This document shows, in pieces, positions 55,417-62,956 of a stretch of 64,000 nt of DNA; position 1 is the stretch's first letter; every line of letters starts with the position of its first letter. Below the pieces are notes generated by a model. It was given only the letters and a program-made list of their open reading frames with translations, was not told the DNA's origin and made no database searches. The DNA comes from Microbacterium sp. (GTDB lineage: Bacteria; Actinomycetota; Actinomycetes; Actinomycetales; Microbacteriaceae), in the NCBI RefSeq assembly GCF_017305435.1, contig NZ_JAFKIP010000004.1, forward strand, positions 1 to 64,000, given 5' to 3'. Position numbers and translations under genes: made by a program.

Positions 55417-55992
55417 ATGAAGGAGTTGCAGTACATGCCACTGGATCAGTTGATGACGCTGGGTAGCCCGGTGCCTATCGCTCGATGGGGTGAACCGGTG
55501 CTTCATCGCCCCTGCGCTCAGGTCACCGATTTCGGACCCGACCTATGGAATCTGCTCTGCACGATGTTTGCGACGAATACGGCGGCGAGCGGCGCAGGTC
55601 TAGCTGCACCACAGATCGGCGTCGACCTCGCGGTCTTCGTATTCGATTGTGAGGATGCCTTCGGTCGGCGCCGTCAAGGGCTCGTCTGCAACCCCGCGAT
55701 CACGCTTGCGGCAGATCCATTCGAGGAAACCGATCTGGAAGGCTGCCTCTCCTACCCCGGAGCGGCCGTTCCGCTGGCTCGGCCAGACTTTGCCATCTGC
55801 CGAGGTCAGGATCAGTTCGGCGAACCTATCACCGTGGCCGGCACCGGCACGCTGGCCCGATGTCTGCAACACGAGACGGATCATCTTGGAGGTGTCGTCA
55901 TGGCCGATCACCTCACGACCGAACAACAACGCGCACTCCAGCGCGAACACAAACTCAACGCGCCCCGCTACCCGATGAGCTGGCCCGCGTAG
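55417..55992 (+). CDS. def: peptide deformylase
   Basis: 191 residues. Motif 1 GAGLAAPQIG (59-68), motif 2 EGCLSYPG with metal ligand Cys110, and motif 3 QHETDH with His152, Glu153 and His156. It removes N-formyl groups from new proteins. Alternative start ATG at 55435. A chromosomal def must exist elsewhere, so this copy on an ICE is an extra one, possibly giving tolerance to deformylase inhibitors such as actinonin. Its 3' end overlaps the convergent methylase gene by 38 bases. Confidence 0.9.
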   Translation: MKELQYMPLDQLMTLGSPVPIARWGEPVLHRPCAQVTDFGPDLWNLLCTMFATNTAASGAGLAAPQIGVDLAVFVFDCEDAFGRRRQGLVCNPAITLAADPFEETDLEGCLSYPGAAVPLARPDFAICRGQDQFGEPITVAGTGTLARCLQHETDHLGGVVMADHLTTEQQRALQREHKLNAPRYPMSWPA

Positions 55993-57196
55993 GGGGCATC
56001 GGCGTCCGATTACCAGAACCATCGCCGTCGAGCGAGCCATACTGCCGCGCACCTCGGGCCCCATCTACTTTGCGACCCCCGCGCACTTGGCATGTTCCCC
56101 GTAGTGACGCCAACGCGGCGGCGGCATGGAGCGGTAGGACGCCATTGCCTAGAGCGGTGACCTGCTGGTTCGCGGTGAGGCCGTACTCAAGATCAGTGAC
56201 CCAACAAGCAGGTAGCCCCATCAACCACTCCACGAATCTCGGAGACGGCCGCAGCCCGGTCTTGTCGCTCAGAAGCGCCGGGGCTGGTGCCGCTCGGCCA
56301 GTGATGTGCTCCCATTGGGCGATGGCGTCACCATAGCGTCCCCAGCGTTGAAGATGTCCTCGACTAGTGGCCACAGCATCTCTGAACCGTCGTTCCTGCT
56401 CAGCGAGCCATCCGGCCCGTTGAGGGCTAGGTCGATGATCTGGTGCGACAGGGCGATGGTTCCCCGGCGCGCACGCACTTGCTCCAGGGTTTCGCCTCCC
56501 CGAGTCGAGTCGGTCGCCAGCGGCGTCCGGAACAGCCTCTTGTTGTTTGGCGAGGATGAAGATGCGAAACCTGGAGTGAGGAGCGCCGACAAAGGACGCT
56601 GGTAGGCCGATCCATTGCGCGTCATACCGCAGGTCGGCCAGATCGCCGAGCACGGCGCCGGCTGCCCTGAGAGGTCGAGCTGCGGCGTCTCCCAGACCCC
56701 ACGGGTCGAGTTCCACGTTGCGAAGGGTTGCAGCCTCGGCGGTTGCAGGGTCGGGGTTGCGTTGTTCATGGTCGTCTCCTTCTGTCGGTGCGCGGACGGC
56801 CGGGGATGAGAGCAACCCGCGCACGTTCTCGATGACCACGAACCGTGGTTGCAGCGCATCAATCGCGACGGCCATATGGGACCAGAGCCCAGAACGAGTG
56901 CCAGGGGCAAGGCCGGCCCGCTTGCCCACCGTCGACACGTCTTGGCAGGGGAAGCCCCCGCACAGGATGTCGATCGGCGGCGCTTGGCTCCAGTCGATCG
57001 TGGTGATGTCACCCAGGTTGGGAGCGTCGGGCCAGTGGTGGGAGAAGACGCGGGCGACGTGTTCGTTGAGTTCGGAGAACCAGACGGTCTCGGCGTCGAA
57101 GGTGTGCTCGACGGCGAGGTCGAGCCCGCCGTAACCGCTGAACAGAGACCCGGCCCGTAGGCGGTGATCGTTGTTCTCGTCGTTCGATTCGCGCAT
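55955..57196 (-). CDS. DNA (cytosine-5) methyltransferase
   Basis: 413 residues. Motif I AGSLFSGYGGLDLAVE (15-30), motif IV GGFPCQDVSTVGKR with catalytic Cys84, motif VI FVVIENVRG (ENV 123-125), motif VIII region VGAPHSRFRIFILA, and motifs IX-X near the end (LRPSPRFVEWLMGLP, VTALGNGVLPLHAAAAL). The target-recognition region is Pro/Arg-rich. Start ATG with GGCGGAG upstream. Target sequence unknown. A Vsr endonuclease is encoded 6.3 kb away. No matching restriction enzyme is recognisable, so it may be a solitary or antirestriction methylase. Another open frame is embedded in it. Confidence 0.9.
   Translation of the reverse strand: MRESNDENNDHRLRAGSLFSGYGGLDLAVEHTFDAETVWFSELNEHVARVFSHHWPDAPNLGDITTIDWSQAPPIDILCGGFPCQDVSTVGKRAGLAPGTRSGLWSHMAVAIDALQPRFVVIENVRGLLSSPAVRAPTEGDDHEQRNPDPATAEAATLRNVELDPWGLGDAAARPLRAAGAVLGDLADLRYDAQWIGLPASFVGAPHSRFRIFILAKQQEAVPDAAGDRLDSGRRNPGASACAPGNHRPVAPDHRPSPQRAGWLAEQERRFRDAVATSRGHLQRWGRYGDAIAQWEHITGRAAPAPALLSDKTGLRPSPRFVEWLMGLPACWVTDLEYGLTANQQVTALGNGVLPLHAAAALASLRGTCQVRGGRKVDGARGARQYGSLDGDGSGNRTPMPPTRASSSGSGAR
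56269..56769 (-). CDS. 166-codon frame embedded in the cytosine methylase gene
   Basis: Same strand as the methylase, one base out of frame, from ATG 56769 to TGA. AAGGAG stands seven bases before the ATG, a better ribosome site than that of the host gene. The protein is patterned rather than random: TWNSTRGVWETPQLDL, IWPTCGMTRNGSAY, LFRTPLATDSTRGGETLEQVRARRGTIALSHQIIDLALNG. I recall predicted proteins with WPTSGMxRNG and xTPxAxD segments in actinophages and actinobacterial elements, not verified here. No known domain. It may be a true overlapping gene or a persistent shadow. Confidence 0.45.
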   Translation of the reverse strand: MNNATPTLQPPRLQPFATWNSTRGVWETPQLDLSGQPAPCSAIWPTCGMTRNGSAYQRPLSALLTPGFASSSSPNNKRLFRTPLATDSTRGGETLEQVRARRGTIALSHQIIDLALNGPDGSLSRNDGSEMLWPLVEDIFNAGDAMVTPSPNGSTSLAERHQPRRF

Positions 57197-57418
57197 GAGG
57201 ACTCCGCCAGATCGGTGATCCCCGGTCCCGTCTCTGTGACTTCTGACCGGGCTGGTCACCTGCCAGGTGCTCGCACCGCCTCCCGTAGCCGTCCCGAGGC
57301 AACTGAGGCACGGTTTGGAGCCGTCCTCCCGACCGCCCCTCAGAGGCACCACGCGTCTTGCAGGTCGAGGTGGAGCGGGTCGCGAAGGTGGGCGTGTAAA
57401 CGGAGATATGGTGCGGCT

Positions 57419-58267
57419 ATGACGAAGCGGCGACCCGGGCGGCAGCCTCCACCGCCCGAGAACAATGAGTGGCTTAGGCGTCTGGACCGTATCTCGGAAG
57501 CGGTCGATGCCTGGCGCAAGCGTGCAGAGAATCCGATGTCGCCCGAGCCTGGAAGCTCGCTCGCAGCCGACTCAGTCGACGGATTGAGTGTCGAGAACCC
57601 TGTCTGGTACTCGATGTGCATCTCCTCCGAGCACTTGGATTTCGCGATCGATGCCATGCGAGCAACAAGCACGATGTACCCGACGGCCTACATGACCGTT
57701 GCGCGGACCGCGTTCGTCGCGGCGGTGAACGCGGTGTGGGTCCTCGCACCGCCAACGCGGCAAGAACGTCGCGAGCGGGCGCTCAGGCTCCGCGCCGACG
57801 ACCTTCGTGTTCAGGTCACATCCTTCCGCGATATGCAGATCCCGGAAGGCAAACCCGAGGAGGCTCGTACGGGCCTCCTGGAGCAACTGCGCGAGCGGCA
57901 AGCCAGCTTGCAGAGGGTCGCGACTGCGCTCGGCCTGCGAGAGGACGTCACGAAGATTCGGTTCCATCAGACCGGGGCGATCGACTGGGTCGCACAGCAC
58001 ATGCACGGCGTCGATGACGACCTCCTCATCGGTGCGACGCAGGCAATCTGGCGATCAGGCAGTGCGGCTGCCCACGCGCAATATCATTTCGGCGTCATGC
58101 GACTCGACCGAAATCAGGTCATACGCGAGGAGTCGGGCGGTTCGATCGTGCGGCTACGTGGAGACCTCGACAACGATGTCGGCCCTGCTATCGCAGCGGC
58201 GACCATGACCCTGAGCGAAGCATTCCGGCTGTATGACCTCCGGCGCGTAACGCATACCCGTAGCTGA
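57419..58267 (+). CDS. unrecognised helical protein beside the methylase
   Basis: 282 residues, no recognised domain. A polar lead (MTKRRPGRQPPPPENNEW) precedes an all-helical body: SSEHLDFAIDAMRATSTMYPTAYMTVARTAFVAAVNAVWVL and a later IWRSGSAAAHAQYHFGVM segment. The S-G-x-x-x-H-A pattern is reminiscent of DUF5677 or HEPN-like proteins, some of which act in toxin or defence systems; this is a guess. Divergent from the methylase gene over 222 bp. Confidence 0.7.
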   Translation: MTKRRPGRQPPPPENNEWLRRLDRISEAVDAWRKRAENPMSPEPGSSLAADSVDGLSVENPVWYSMCISSEHLDFAIDAMRATSTMYPTAYMTVARTAFVAAVNAVWVLAPPTRQERRERALRLRADDLRVQVTSFRDMQIPEGKPEEARTGLLEQLRERQASLQRVATALGLREDVTKIRFHQTGAIDWVAQHMHGVDDDLLIGATQAIWRSGSAAAHAQYHFGVMRLDRNQVIREESGGSIVRLRGDLDNDVGPAIAAATMTLSEAFRLYDLRRVTHTRS

Positions 58268-58451: not shown

Positions 58452-59333
58452 TCAACGGGGCCTTCGCAGCCAAGATGGCGCTCGCCGTGCACCGACCGCC
58501 GAAGATCGTATCCCGCGGCTGCGCCTCCCAAGTGCCTCGAAGGAATTGTCGCTGAGCGTGAGCTTCTTCGGAACAACGCCCTTGATTGCTTCGAGCTTGC
58601 TTCCGACGGCCTCGATGTCCTTGCCAATACGCACGAGCGGATCGACAGGCAACTCGATGCGCTTCTCGACATCGAGGTCGAGTACAAACGTTTCGTGGAA
58701 CGGTTCTGGAGATGCCGTTCCGGTGTACTCGGCTTCGACTTCCCAGCGGCGCGGGATTCCCGACGCGTCGTCAAACAACTCAGGCACTTGACCCAGGAAC
58801 CAGATGTATGTGTTGCCCGGATTGAGCGTACGAAAGCTCACGTTGCCGCTGAACGTCTCGTTGACCTCAGCGAAATGTGCGTTCATCATTCCAGGTTTGA
58901 AGAATTTCTCCAGGGAAGTGAACGGCGGGCTCACGCGCAACCGCACCTCGTGGGCCGGACTCACCCCGATGTTTCGTACGGCGATATGAAGCGTGCCCTC
59001 TGCCGGTGCACCGCGGTTCTTTCGAACGAAACGAGTGGGTTCCAGGGCGACCTGGACCCTCGGTCGGACGGCTTCGACGTTGACCTGGCGCGCCAGTTCG
59101 TTCGATGCGATCAGCGCCTTGTTCGACTGATCCACCTGACGAATCTGATACCAAGCGAACCCCAACGCAACCAGAGCTGACGCTCCGAATATGGCAGACC
59201 ATTCTTCGGCGGTCGGCATGTTGGGGAACCGCCACCACGAGCCCCATATCGCGACGCTGACAGAGAACAGCCCGAACGCAACCACTACGACAGCAGCAAC
59301 CGACAAGACAATGCGTGCGGCCGGGTTCTTCAC
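58452..59333 (-). CDS. unrecognised membrane-anchored protein
   Basis: 293 residues. Two TM helices (about 8-32 and 46-62) precede a short linker (QIRQVDQSNKALIASNELARQV) and a beta-rich domain of about 150 residues (RPRVQVALEPTRFVRKNRGAPAEGTLHIAVRNIGVSPAHEVRLRV). The tail is basic. The body is probably cytoplasmic after a TM hairpin. GTG start; GGGGAG abuts the start too closely to be certain. Convergent with the gene at 57419; its 5' end overlaps the possible long start of the relaxase. Confidence 0.65.
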   Translation of the reverse strand: MKNPAARIVLSVAAVVVVAFGLFSVSVAIWGSWWRFPNMPTAEEWSAIFGASALVALGFAWYQIRQVDQSNKALIASNELARQVNVEAVRPRVQVALEPTRFVRKNRGAPAEGTLHIAVRNIGVSPAHEVRLRVSPPFTSLEKFFKPGMMNAHFAEVNETFSGNVSFRTLNPGNTYIWFLGQVPELFDDASGIPRRWEVEAEYTGTASPEPFHETFVLDLDVEKRIELPVDPLVRIGKDIEAVGSKLEAIKGVVPKKLTLSDNSFEALGRRSRGIRSSAVGARRAPSWLRRPR

Positions 59334-59407
59334 CTCCCCAACTTTATCGGCGGCGACCTGCGGCCACTGTGATGCTTACGTCGGTTGTACCGCGAACACC
59401 TACGTGT

Positions 59408-62400
59408 ATGACCGTTTCGATGCGGGTGATGAGCGCTGGCGATGGCTACAAGTACCTGCTCCGCACGGTCGCCGCTGGCGACGGTGACAGGTCACTCTCG
59501 ACCCCGTTGACGAGGTATTACGCCGAGGCGGGCAGCCCGCCGGGTCGCTGGCTCGGCGCGGGGGTCGCAACGCTGGGCGGGGTGATCGTGGAAGGTGATC
59601 GGGTCTCCGAATCCCAGCTCCAGCTTCTTGTGGGGATGGGCCGGCACCCTGTCACCGGCGATCCGCTCGGCCTGGCGTATCCCGCGTACAAGACCGTGGC
59701 GGAGCGCGTCGCGGAGCGCACCGCGGCGCTCGATCCCGGCCTCGGGCCGACCTCGCGTGCCGAGGCGGTCGCGCAGATTGAAGCCGAAGAAGCGGGGCGG
59801 GGGACGAGGCGCGCCGTCGCCGGGTACGACTTCACCTTCTCAATCCCGAAGTCCGCATCAGTGCTGTGGGCAGTCGCGGACGCGGGCACGCAGGCGCTCA
59901 TTGCCGAGGCGCATCATGCGGCGGTTGCGGAGGTGGTTGCGTTCATGGAACGGGAGGTTGCAGCCACCCGCACCGGCGCAACCGCACGCGGTGGAGCCGT
60001 TGCACAGGTAGATGTCCGTGGCCTGGTCGCCACGGCGTTTGACCACTACGACTCCCGGGCTGGAGATCCGCACCTGCACACTCATGTCGTCATCTCGAAC
60101 AAGGTGCAGACCGTCCTGGACGGCAAGTGGCGCTCCCTCGACGGCCGGCCCATGCACGCCGCGACGGTCGCGCTCTCCGAGCTGCACGAGGCCGTGCTCG
60201 CCGACCACCTCACGAGGTCGTTCGGTGTCTCCTGGGAGTCCCGCGAGATGGGCCGGGACCGCAATCCGGCGTGGGCGGTGGCGGCCGTGCCGGAGGAGCT
60301 GGTGGCCGAGTTCTCCTCCCGATCCCGGCACATCGACGCGGAGAAGAACCGGCTCATCGCCGAGTATGTCGACAAGCACGGCCGTCAGCCTTCGACGGCA
60401 ACGATCATCAAGCTCCGCGCCCAAGCCACCCTCACCACCCGCCCAGAGAAGCAGGTTCGGTCGCTGGCTGACCTGACCGCCGAATGGCGGCACCGCGCCG
60501 GCCGCATCCTCGGCATGGACGCGACCTCCTGGACGCGGGACGTGACCGCGAACGACGCACCGCTGCTGCTGCGCGCCGACGACATCCCGCTGGACGTGAT
60601 CGCATCTCTCGGCCAGTCGGTCGTGGAGGTGGTGGGCGAGAAGCGGTCGACCTGGCGACGGTGGAATCTCACCGCCGAGGCGGCTCGGCAGACGATGGGC
60701 TACCGGTTCGCCTCCACCGTGGATCGGGAAGCGGTTGTCGGCCTGGTCGTAGATGCCGCCGAGGCCGCGTCGCTGCGGCTCACGCCGCCGGAGCTCGCGT
60801 CGAGCCCGGTGGCGTTCCGCCGTCCGGATGGCACTTCGGTGTTCCGGCCGAAGCACTCGACGGTGTTCTCATCCGAAGTCCTGCTGGCCGCCGAAGACCG
60901 TCTCCTCGAGCGCGCCCGCATGAGGACCGGCCCGACCGTGCCGCTGGCGACGGTGGAGCGGATCGCCGCCAGATCCGACCGGGACGGGCGAGTGCTCGGC
61001 GACGATCAAGCCGCCGCGCTCGCGTCGGTCGCCGTGTCTGGTCGCGTCGTCGATGTTCTGGTCGGCCCGGCCGGAGCAGGGAAGACCACCGCGATGTCCG
61101 CGTTGCGGCGGGCATGGGAGCACGAGCACGGCCAAGGCTCGGTGCTCGGGCTGGCGCCGTCTGCGGTCGCTGCGCAGGTCCTCGCTGACGACCTGGGGAT
61201 CGCGACGGAGAACACCGCGAAGTGGTGGGAGGTCCATCAACGCACCGGCCAGTCGTTCCGCACGGGTCAGCTCGTGATCGTGGACGAAGCCTCCCTCGCC
61301 GGCACGCTGTCCCTGGACCGGATCACCGCGCTGGCGGCCGAGGCGGGAGCGAAGGTGCTGCTCGTCGGCGACTACGCGCAACTCCAGTCCGTCGACGCCG
61401 GCGGCGCGTTCTCCCTCCTGGCCCACGACCGGGACGATGCGCCCGAGTTGGTCGACATCCACAGGTTCACGAACCCGTGGGAGAAGACCGCATCACTCGG
61501 CCTGCGGTATGGACGCACCGAAGTCCTCGATATCTACCTCGACCACGACCGCATCCAGGGAGGGGAGACCGAGGCGATGATTAACGCCGCGTACGAGGCC
61601 TGGCGTGCCGACCGGCTCGCGGGGAGGGCGAGCGTGCTGGTCAGCGACTCGAACGAATCCGTCCTCGCGCTCAACCAGCGTGCCCGCACCGATCTGATCC
61701 TTCACGGCACGGTGAACGCGCTGCGCGAGGTCGAGTTGCACGACGGCACCCGCGCCGCGGCCGGGGACACGGTGATCACCCGCCGCAACGACCGCCGCCT
61801 ACGTGCCGACCGGTCCTGGGTCCGCAACGGCGACAGATGGACCGTCACCGACATCCGAGACGACGGCTCTGTCACACTCCGCCGCGCCGGGCACAGATGG
61901 GGCGGGTCGGTCGTAATCCCGGCGGACTACGCGGCCGAACACCTCGACCTCGGGTACGCGGTGACCTCCTACCGGGCACAGGGCATCACCGTGGACACCT
62001 CGCACGTCCTTGTCGACCCATCCATGACGCGGGAGAACCTGTACGTCGCGCTCACTCGTGGCCGGGACGCGAACCTCGCCTACGTCGCCATCGACAAGCC
62101 TGACGACTCCCACCAGGGGCCGCACCCCGGCGACAACACTGACGCCACCGCCCGCTCCGTGCTGTTCGGGGTGCTCCAGCACGGCGGCGCCGAGCTCTCC
62201 GCCCACGAGACCATCACCGCCGAGCAGGACGCCTGGGCGAACATCGGCCAACTCGCCGCGGAGTACGAGACAATCGCCGCCGCAGCCCAACGCGACAGAT
62301 GGGCGAACCTCGTTCGCGCATCCGGACTCACCGACGACGACGCGGACGTTGCGATCAGCTCGCCGGCATTCGGCGCATTGGCTGCTGAGCTGCGCCGCGC

Positions 62401-62956
62401 GGAGGCCAACCACCACGACATCGAGACCCTGCTACCGCGACTCGTACGAGTGCGCGGATTCTCGGATGCCGATGACATCGCCGCCGTCCTCCACCATCGC
62501 GTCACTCGCGCCACCGCCCGCCCCGCCGGGTCCGGCCGCGCCCGCAAGATGCCCCGGCTGATTGCCGGTCTCATCCCCGAAGCCACCGGCACCATGAGCG
62601 GCGAGTTCCGGCAGGCGCTCACCGAACGACGCGACCTCATCGAGACCCGCGCCGCCGCCCTCCTCGACACTGCGCTCACCGAACAGCGGGGATGGACGAA
62701 GGCGCTCGGAGCCCCGCCGAAGGACGCCAAGACCGCCGCGACCTGGCGCCGCCTGGCCCGCACGGTCGCCGCGTACCGCGACCGCTACGGCATCGCGGAC
62801 CCGGCGCCACTCGGGGCGCCGGCCGAGAACGATGCACAGAAGATCGAGGCCGCCCGCGCCCGCGCCGCCCTTGATCGGGCACGCGACCTCGTGCGAGGGC
62901 CGGGGGAGGAGCCGCAGCGGCGGCACGGGCGGGAGCCGGTGCGCCGCTCTCTGTGA
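59408..62956 (+). CDS. MobF (TrwC/TraI) relaxase-helicase
   Basis: 1182 residues from ATG 59408 (MTVSMRVMSAGDGYKYL); MSAGDGYKYL at 59429 and a longer frame from 59315 are alternatives. The relaxase domain has Tyr37/Tyr38 (TRYYAE) and the three-His motif HYDSRAGDPHLHTH (His213 to His226). The helicase part has Walker A GPAGAGKTT near residue 555, VIVDEASLAG and LVGDYAQLQSVDAGG. It nicks oriT and unwinds the transferred strand. It is separated by 15 kb from the other transfer genes and reads the other way. No ribosome site is obvious. Confidence 0.92.
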   Translation: MTVSMRVMSAGDGYKYLLRTVAAGDGDRSLSTPLTRYYAEAGSPPGRWLGAGVATLGGVIVEGDRVSESQLQLLVGMGRHPVTGDPLGLAYPAYKTVAERVAERTAALDPGLGPTSRAEAVAQIEAEEAGRGTRRAVAGYDFTFSIPKSASVLWAVADAGTQALIAEAHHAAVAEVVAFMEREVAATRTGATARGGAVAQVDVRGLVATAFDHYDSRAGDPHLHTHVVISNKVQTVLDGKWRSLDGRPMHAATVALSELHEAVLADHLTRSFGVSWESREMGRDRNPAWAVAAVPEELVAEFSSRSRHIDAEKNRLIAEYVDKHGRQPSTATIIKLRAQATLTTRPEKQVRSLADLTAEWRHRAGRILGMDATSWTRDVTANDAPLLLRADDIPLDVIASLGQSVVEVVGEKRSTWRRWNLTAEAARQTMGYRFASTVDREAVVGLVVDAAEAASLRLTPPELASSPVAFRRPDGTSVFRPKHSTVFSSEVLLAAEDRLLERARMRTGPTVPLATVERIAARSDRDGRVLGDDQAAALASVAVSGRVVDVLVGPAGAGKTTAMSALRRAWEHEHGQGSVLGLAPSAVAAQVLADDLGIATENTAKWWEVHQRTGQSFRTGQLVIVDEASLAGTLSLDRITALAAEAGAKVLLVGDYAQLQSVDAGGAFSLLAHDRDDAPELVDIHRFTNPWEKTASLGLRYGRTEVLDIYLDHDRIQGGETEAMINAAYEAWRADRLAGRASVLVSDSNESVLALNQRARTDLILHGTVNALREVELHDGTRAAAGDTVITRRNDRRLRADRSWVRNGDRWTVTDIRDDGSVTLRRAGHRWGGSVVIPADYAAEHLDLGYAVTSYRAQGITVDTSHVLVDPSMTRENLYVALTRGRDANLAYVAIDKPDDSHQGPHPGDNTDATARSVLFGVLQHGGAELSAHETITAEQDAWANIGQLAAEYETIAAAAQRDRWANLVRASGLTDDDADVAISSPAFGALAAELRRAEANHHDIETLLPRLVRVRGFSDADDIAAVLHHRVTRATARPAGSGRARKMPRLIAGLIPEATGTMSGEFRQALTERRDLIETRAAALLDTALTEQRGWTKALGAPPKDAKTAATWRRLARTVAAYRDRYGIADPAPLGAPAENDAQKIEAARARAALDRARDLVRGPGEEPQRRHGREPVRRSL

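Follow-up and report, generated by a model that had tools for sequence, protein, structure and literature searches.

A conserved reading frame embedded in a C5-cytosine methyltransferase gene of actinobacterial conjugative elements and phages, and its putative role as a second enzyme chain

In a stretch of 64,000 nucleotides from Microbacterium sp. (assembly GCF_017305435.1, contig NZ_JAFKIP010000004.1, positions 1 to 64,000; hereafter "the window"), a gene for a C5-cytosine methyltransferase, called alpha here, contains on the same strand and one base out of frame a second complete reading frame of 166 codons, called beta. Judging from the comparison with relatives in other genomes and in viruses, it is nearly certain that beta is a real, selected gene, and probable that it encodes a methylase subunit, the second chain of a two-chain C5 methylase; whether this chain supplies target recognition, as structural modelling suggests, is an evenly balanced matter. 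In most relatives, as in the window, the C-terminal domain of the methylase lies in the alpha frame (the embedded layout); in others it lies in the beta frame (the split layout). The features concerned, all on the minus strand, are as follows:

55955..57196, minus strand: alpha, C5-cytosine methyltransferase of 413 residues from ATG 57196 (PF00145; M.HhaI-like model)
56777..57160, minus strand: alpha residues 13-140, catalytic N-terminal part with GGFPCQDVS and ENVRG, without beta overlap
56776..56781, minus strand: AAGGAG, predicted beta ribosome site, with a 6-base spacer to ATG 56769 (sequence; kept in relatives)
56269..56769, minus strand: beta, embedded 166-codon gene in phase +1 of alpha (reading frame, relatives, selection tests)
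56696..56770, minus strand: alpha residues 143-167, predicted to be disordered (predicted local distance difference test, pLDDT, < 50), overlapping the beta start region
56549..56590, minus strand: alpha motif VIII, VGAPHSRFRIFILA, within the stretch where both frames are constrained (codon-position variation)
56351..56530, minus strand: alpha residues 223-282, evolving in the codon register of beta (codon-position variation)
56111..56347, minus strand: C-terminal domain (equivalents of motifs IX/X), in the alpha frame here and in the beta frame in split relatives

Beta runs from ATG 56769 to the TGA at 56271-56269. Its frame is also open 5' of this ATG, the earliest possible start being GTG 57012, which would give 247 codons; the relatives support ATG 56769 as the favoured start. 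The start, the length, the well-spaced AAGGAG and the peptides named in a preliminary description of this DNA are all present in the sequence, and the alpha frame does retain VGAPHSRFRIFILA and the C-terminal motifs over or beyond the same bases, as that description held. The alpha frame, for its part, extends open upstream of ATG 57196 as far as GTG 57352. Alpha matches PF00145 (E 1.2e-32; 114.1 bits against a cut-off of 22) and TIGR00675 (109.2 bits against a cut-off of 100.65), and across 76 alpha sequences C84, Q85, E123, N124 and V125 are invariant, with G350, N351 and G352 nearly so. The motif numbers I to X and the names given here to the catalytic and C-terminal motifs of alpha are those that we take to apply.

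Relatives of the pair and selection in the beta frame

The openness of the beta frame in the window is by itself unremarkable and could be chance, as 18.5% of 200 synonymous redraws of alpha leave alpha 146-308 without a +1 stop; the case for beta therefore rests on its relatives. A tblastn search with beta gave matches in 197 of 50,697 phage records and 5 of 72,556 plasmid records, the best of them on a Microbacterium plasmid (76.5% identity over 98% of beta). There, the annotation lists beta as a hypothetical protein and alpha without a gene, in a table that omits pseudogenes, and the alpha reading is broken near its start. To avoid bias toward beta, a second set of relatives was gathered with the alpha alignment as the only query, and consists of the best 80 of 308 genome relatives and the best 80 of at least 524 viral relatives. 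In this set, tblastn detects beta in every one of the 80 genome loci and in 60 of the 80 viral ones, in phase +1 every time, and a beta profile finds its best match at phase +1 in all 160 loci, as it does in 9 further ones. The profile was built with 51 genome and 28 viral loci, the remaining 81 lying outside it (some as near copies), and its search space comprised open stretches of at least 40 codons on the strand of alpha only; the most independent part of its result is formed by the 20 viral loci in which tblastn gave no match to beta. For phage Tweety (L004), the top tblastn match falls in a second methylase gene, and the match inside the alpha/beta pair was used instead; this second gene lies upstream and has a beta-like match of its own at 658-891.

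The mode of variation was analyzed in a genome set made up of the window and the 80 loci (81 sequences), of which 71 have a stop-free alpha of at least 340 codons and 58 remain below 97% nucleotide identity. At fourfold third bases encoding the same amino acid, identity amounts to 0.557 upstream of the overlap, 0.734 within it and 0.357 downstream, so that silent variation is indeed reduced in the overlap, which bears out the synonymous-site check proposed in the preliminary description. Over alpha 226-308, amino-acid identity is lower in the alpha frame than in the beta frame (0.522 vs 0.643), when the reverse holds upstream of the overlap (0.805 vs 0.564). The codon register follows the same course: outside the overlap, the third position of alpha is the most variable in 16 of 16 steps of 12 codons, whereas the first position of alpha, which is the third of beta, is the most variable in step 161-172 and in five of five steps over 223-282. 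In between, over alpha 173-222, which contains motif VIII, the third position is again the most variable, yet its variation is reduced in several steps compared with most of those upstream.

Stop codons were counted against synonymous expectation. In the overlap of the genome set, 21 +1 stops stand against 83.2 in shuffles, several of the 21 being the ends of shorter beta frames; a count over 80 genome loci gives 14 +1 stops for 61.4 expected and 116 +2 stops for 155.7. The viral overlap, testable in 47 of 80 loci, holds 6 +1 stops against 50.9 expected and 105 +2 stops against 105.8, and the viral N-terminal control (62 loci) behaves as expected in both frames (+1, 176 vs 167.4; +2, 133 vs 144.1). 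Even among the viral loci in which tblastn had found no beta, 8 of 20 are testable and contain no +1 stop for 8.6 expected. Overall, these patterns of sequence variation show beta to be conserved and under purifying selection in its own frame. The overlapping pair with both frames preserved that the preliminary description had suspected is thus upheld by the fourfold constraint and by the +1 beta in 160 of 160 loci, and, as it had also surmised, the pair is missed in most annotation.

Start signals of beta

When the start of beta is projected from tblastn onto the genome set, an ATG occupies the exact codon in 68 of 80 loci and a GTG in one, the projection being off by a few codons, or falling on another triplet, in the remaining 11. 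AAGGAG occurs at bases -18 to -4 in 61 of the 80 loci, as against 40 of 75,352 other 15-base windows of alpha; both signals, whose retention had been named as a check, are accordingly kept in most genome relatives. If starts are chosen so as to favour ribosome sites, AAGGAG stands at a spacing of 5 to 9 in 63 of 80 loci, the start is ATG in 78 and GTG in 2, and 75 of the 80 frames encode at least 130 residues. Among the 69 genome loci in which the chosen and the projected starts coincide (57 distinct sequences), per-base conservation reaches 0.93-1.00 in AAGGAG and 0.98-1.00 in ATG, with 0.53-0.89 in the spacer; over bases -24 to -13 it ranges from 0.39 to 0.89, with a single base at 0.98.

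In many phages, the start of beta adjoins alpha motif VI, and the codons of this motif appear to be chosen with regard to it. Of 40 distinct cases of this kind, 25 spell the motif arginine AGA or AGG, compared with 33 of the 276 other arginines upstream in these genes (p 1.6e-11); of 67 loci where beta starts further on, none does. In the AGA/AGG loci with a serine overlapping the GTG start, this serine is AGT in 23 of 23, against 17 of 281 other serines. Loci with a CGN arginine more often spell the motif VI asparagine AAT, which writes ATG (table 21, 4, 4, 11; p 5e-4). The motif pattern was unmatched in 18 of 169 loci. At the level of codon spelling, then, rare AGA/AGG codons in alpha motif VI write the predicted beta ribosome site in many phages, and the putative start signals of beta are shown to be maintained partly through the codon choice of alpha. 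A third start type, with a beta match whose beginning lies upstream of motif VI, occurs in 17 distinct viral loci (L113, L128 and L131 among them). Separately, four loci from different hosts (L019, L022, L036 and L002) share a very similar beta start region, an early interruption of alpha and an open beta of 155 codons.

The C-terminal domain and a putative two-chain enzyme

Beyond the overlap itself, it is the placement of the C-terminal domain that links beta to the methylase. By profile, the 160 alpha-found loci divide into 136 embedded, 22 split, one without a C-terminal domain and one with this domain separate; 9 further loci comprise 5 embedded and 4 split, and the motif IX/X domain lies in the beta frame instead of the alpha frame in 26 of 167 classifiable loci. 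Phages Jamun and Jinkies and an Embleya plasmid are examples: their alpha ends past motif VIII, and the C-terminal domain continues the beta frame. On a quick tree of 144 alpha N-terminal domains (118 embedded, 26 split; rows with a short match to this domain excluded), at least 15 changes of layout are needed, nine of them forced by starred branches. In two genome loci, a single one-base gap relative to near-identical embedded copies shifts the C-terminal domain into the beta frame, a difference that may equally be a sequencing error. Both layouts have the same list of parts and differ only in which frame owns the C-terminal domain. Because the assembled complex would have the same parts either way, the C-terminal half may move between frames harmlessly.

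The same organization is reflected in phrog_1008, a family labelled DNA methyltransferase, which is matched by 80 of 80 aligned beta sequences (window beta, E 8.2e-10) and which occurs in 5 of 149 genomes sampled from the phylum and in none of 14 control genomes. In the window, family positions 61-149 correspond to beta and 220-318 to the alpha C-terminus; one family is spread over two frames here because split relatives hold beta and the C-terminal domain in one frame. The family thus treats as a single protein, as in the split phages, what the window divides between two frames, and its label gives no hint of an overlap.

Since split relatives carry the methylase motif IX/X domain in the beta frame, beta points to an enzyme subunit, and the regulator or DNA mimic that the preliminary description had considered finds no support. 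As for its role, the predicted structure of alpha has an M.HhaI-like C5 methylase fold that is disordered after motif VIII (residues 231-249 and 251-255 have pLDDT < 50 and are followed by two helices); aligned with M.HhaI, it leaves 83 M.HhaI residues unaligned. It is because the region of alpha after motif VIII is partly disordered that beta may be thought to supply recognition. On this model, beta, written inside the alpha gene one base out of frame, would start at its own internal ribosome site; alpha would bring S-adenosylmethionine binding, catalysis and the C-terminal motifs, and beta would dock at the place of the target recognition domain and supply or complete sequence recognition, both chains being needed for methylation. 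Alpha and beta together could then be an orphan modification enzyme and protect the conjugative element or phage that carries them against restriction by the host. Efficient reassembly is described for splits, whether natural or artificial, that fall between motif VIII and the recognition domain (PMC5944983). The wider proposal, namely an obligate two-chain C5 methylase family with a new kind of +1-frame recognition subunit, whose C-terminal half is not fixed and has been moved by small length changes without breaking the enzyme, stands in our view at roughly even chances.

Several observations weigh against this reading. In 5 of the 80 genome loci (L025, L049, L050, L056, L069), a stop codon ends beta early, and in 4 of 80 (L019, L022, L036, L073) the alpha frame stops shortly after the match begins. 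The non-overlapped N-terminus of alpha in the genome set (78 loci) is itself depleted of stops (+1, 44 vs 99.4 expected; +2, 42 vs 95.5), which makes the depletion in the genome overlap weak evidence. Frequent stops in homologues, by which the preliminary description would have judged the pair, did not refute it, with the reservation that these early stops exist and that the depletion is not specific to the overlap. The p-values for codon choice overstate the number of independent events, because the loci are related. Confidence in the predicted structure of beta is low (mean pLDDT 64.7; predicted template modelling score 0.31), and against solved structures the best structure-search match has E 2.6, with no sequence match at E 1; given the weak model, this structural null is uninformative, and the recognition role is derived from what alpha lacks.

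Among other explanations, the one with most weight is that beta is translated and is no subunit, acting instead as a regulator, inhibitor, DNA mimic or counter-defence factor that shares methylase DNA, which we regard as unlikely though not negligible. Beta has no recognised catalytic motif, its window sequence matches nothing in Pfam and NCBIfam, and genes nested in methylase genes can, by the account in PMC11855218, be unrelated to the host enzyme. PADLOC gave no match for beta. Searches with 80 beta sequences added a lone weak Pfam match, ABATE (one member, E 0.0073), and a second PHROG family for one member, both disregarded. A factor merely sharing the DNA is hard to reconcile with a beta present in 160 of 160 loci of the alpha family and with the motif IX/X domain in its frame in 26 of the 167 classifiable ones. 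Ribosomal frameshifting could alternatively fuse the N-terminal part of alpha to beta, made mainly as a fusion: the frames overlap across motif VIII, so that a shift is geometrically possible, and split relatives would then yield one long chain. We hold this to be very improbable, as the conserved AAGGAG and ATG and the start-writing codons of motif VI point to independent initiation, and the embedded layout would need two shifts to reach the C-terminal domain.

Two further candidates were rejected. The idea that beta is a frame open by chance, as GC-rich genes may have, and held open by the codon usage of alpha, draws on the synonymous shuffles that stay open in the window and on the shifted-stop depletion of the genome-set alpha N-terminus. 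Against it stand the register flip, the fourfold constraint, the conserved start signals, the motif VI codons and the clean viral stop test with its +2 and N-terminal controls, and we think it extremely improbable; it is the comparison with relatives that dismisses it, the window alone being insufficient. Overlapping frames in actinophage methylase genes are described (PMC11855218), which would suit a homing-endonuclease-type insertion in the second frame, as in ShiLan. We give this almost no credence: beta overlaps alpha's own motif VIII with no inserted block, it is present in 160 of 160 loci and not patchy, and a Pfam search with 80 beta sequences at E 0.01 lists no HNH family. The two-chain methylase remains our preferred reading, and known enzymes offer some precedent for it.

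The small chain of the two-chain C5 methylase M.EcoHK31I is written in an alternative frame within the gene of its large chain. This enzyme, specific for YGGCCR, is described as requiring both chains (PMC3404938, PMC3439449), the large one holding motifs I-VIII, X and a predicted recognition domain and the small one motif IX (PMC3404938). The likeness, by that description, lies in the two chains; the window differs in that alpha holds both IX and X, its motif IX/X domain being in the alpha frame and not on the nested chain, and in that the region between motif VIII and the C-terminal domain is partly disordered in the model. In M.AquI (CYCGRG), the large chain is reported to hold motifs I-VIII and the small chain the rest of the variable region with motifs IX-X (PMC3404938), a division of motifs that, as described, is that of the split relatives; by contrast, the window and most relatives keep the motif IX/X domain on alpha, with beta wholly within the alpha gene. 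Methylase parts divided over two chains in overlapping frames are found in the split relatives, and we infer the same for the embedded layout of the window. The ShiLan-type HNH gene is likewise a second-frame gene in an actinophage methylase (PMC11855218, PMC9957025), and is set apart by its description as a patchy mobile nuclease insertion in other methylases. In open-licence literature, the titles and abstract beginnings among the matches listed do not describe the alpha/beta pair. Split C5 methylases such as M.AquI and M.EcoHK31I are known, and the embedded, frame-switching family is a new form of that design.

Genomic setting and implications

The neighbours of the pair in the window are:

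59315..62956, plus strand: TrwC-type relaxase gene, divergent neighbour (PF08751, E 1.8e-91)
57164-58267, plus strand: gene of unknown function between the pair and the relaxase
58452-59333, minus strand: gene of unknown function between the pair and the relaxase
55417-55992, plus strand: peptide deformylase gene, convergent with alpha and overlapping the alpha gene end

Of the 80 genome loci, 69 have a TrwC relaxase match next to the pair (flanks of at most 2.5 kb), and of the 80 viral loci none; in all 60 rows listed, the match is on the strand opposite to the pair. The pair and the divergent relaxase are a conserved module of actinobacterial conjugative elements, a setting that suits an orphan methylase shielding a conjugative element. 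As for the earlier idea that the embedded product protects the element, it may be true indirectly, by way of methylation. No Pfam or PADLOC model matches either of the two genes of unknown function, which have relatives of about 80% identity beside alpha only in L056 and L068, with short partial matches to the 57164-58267 gene in three other loci; the peptide deformylase gene has no tblastn match in the loci fetched from other genomes. The genome of the window also contains a second alpha/beta copy, with about 74% identity in the alpha part, broken at contig ends (L012 at the end of C4, L013 at the start of C2), which share a short direct repeat and beyond which the DNA resembles insertion sequence ends.

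To our knowledge, bacteria offer few documented cases of a long overlap on one strand with both proteins under selection, and few can be tied to a mechanism. The present overlap recurs in conjugative elements of many actinobacteria and in many phages, and explains adjoining annotations of "DNA methyltransferase" and "hypothetical protein". Studies of alpha alone may overlook half of the enzyme, and a C-terminal half that switches frames amounts to a natural experiment on the origin of split enzymes and of overlapping genes.
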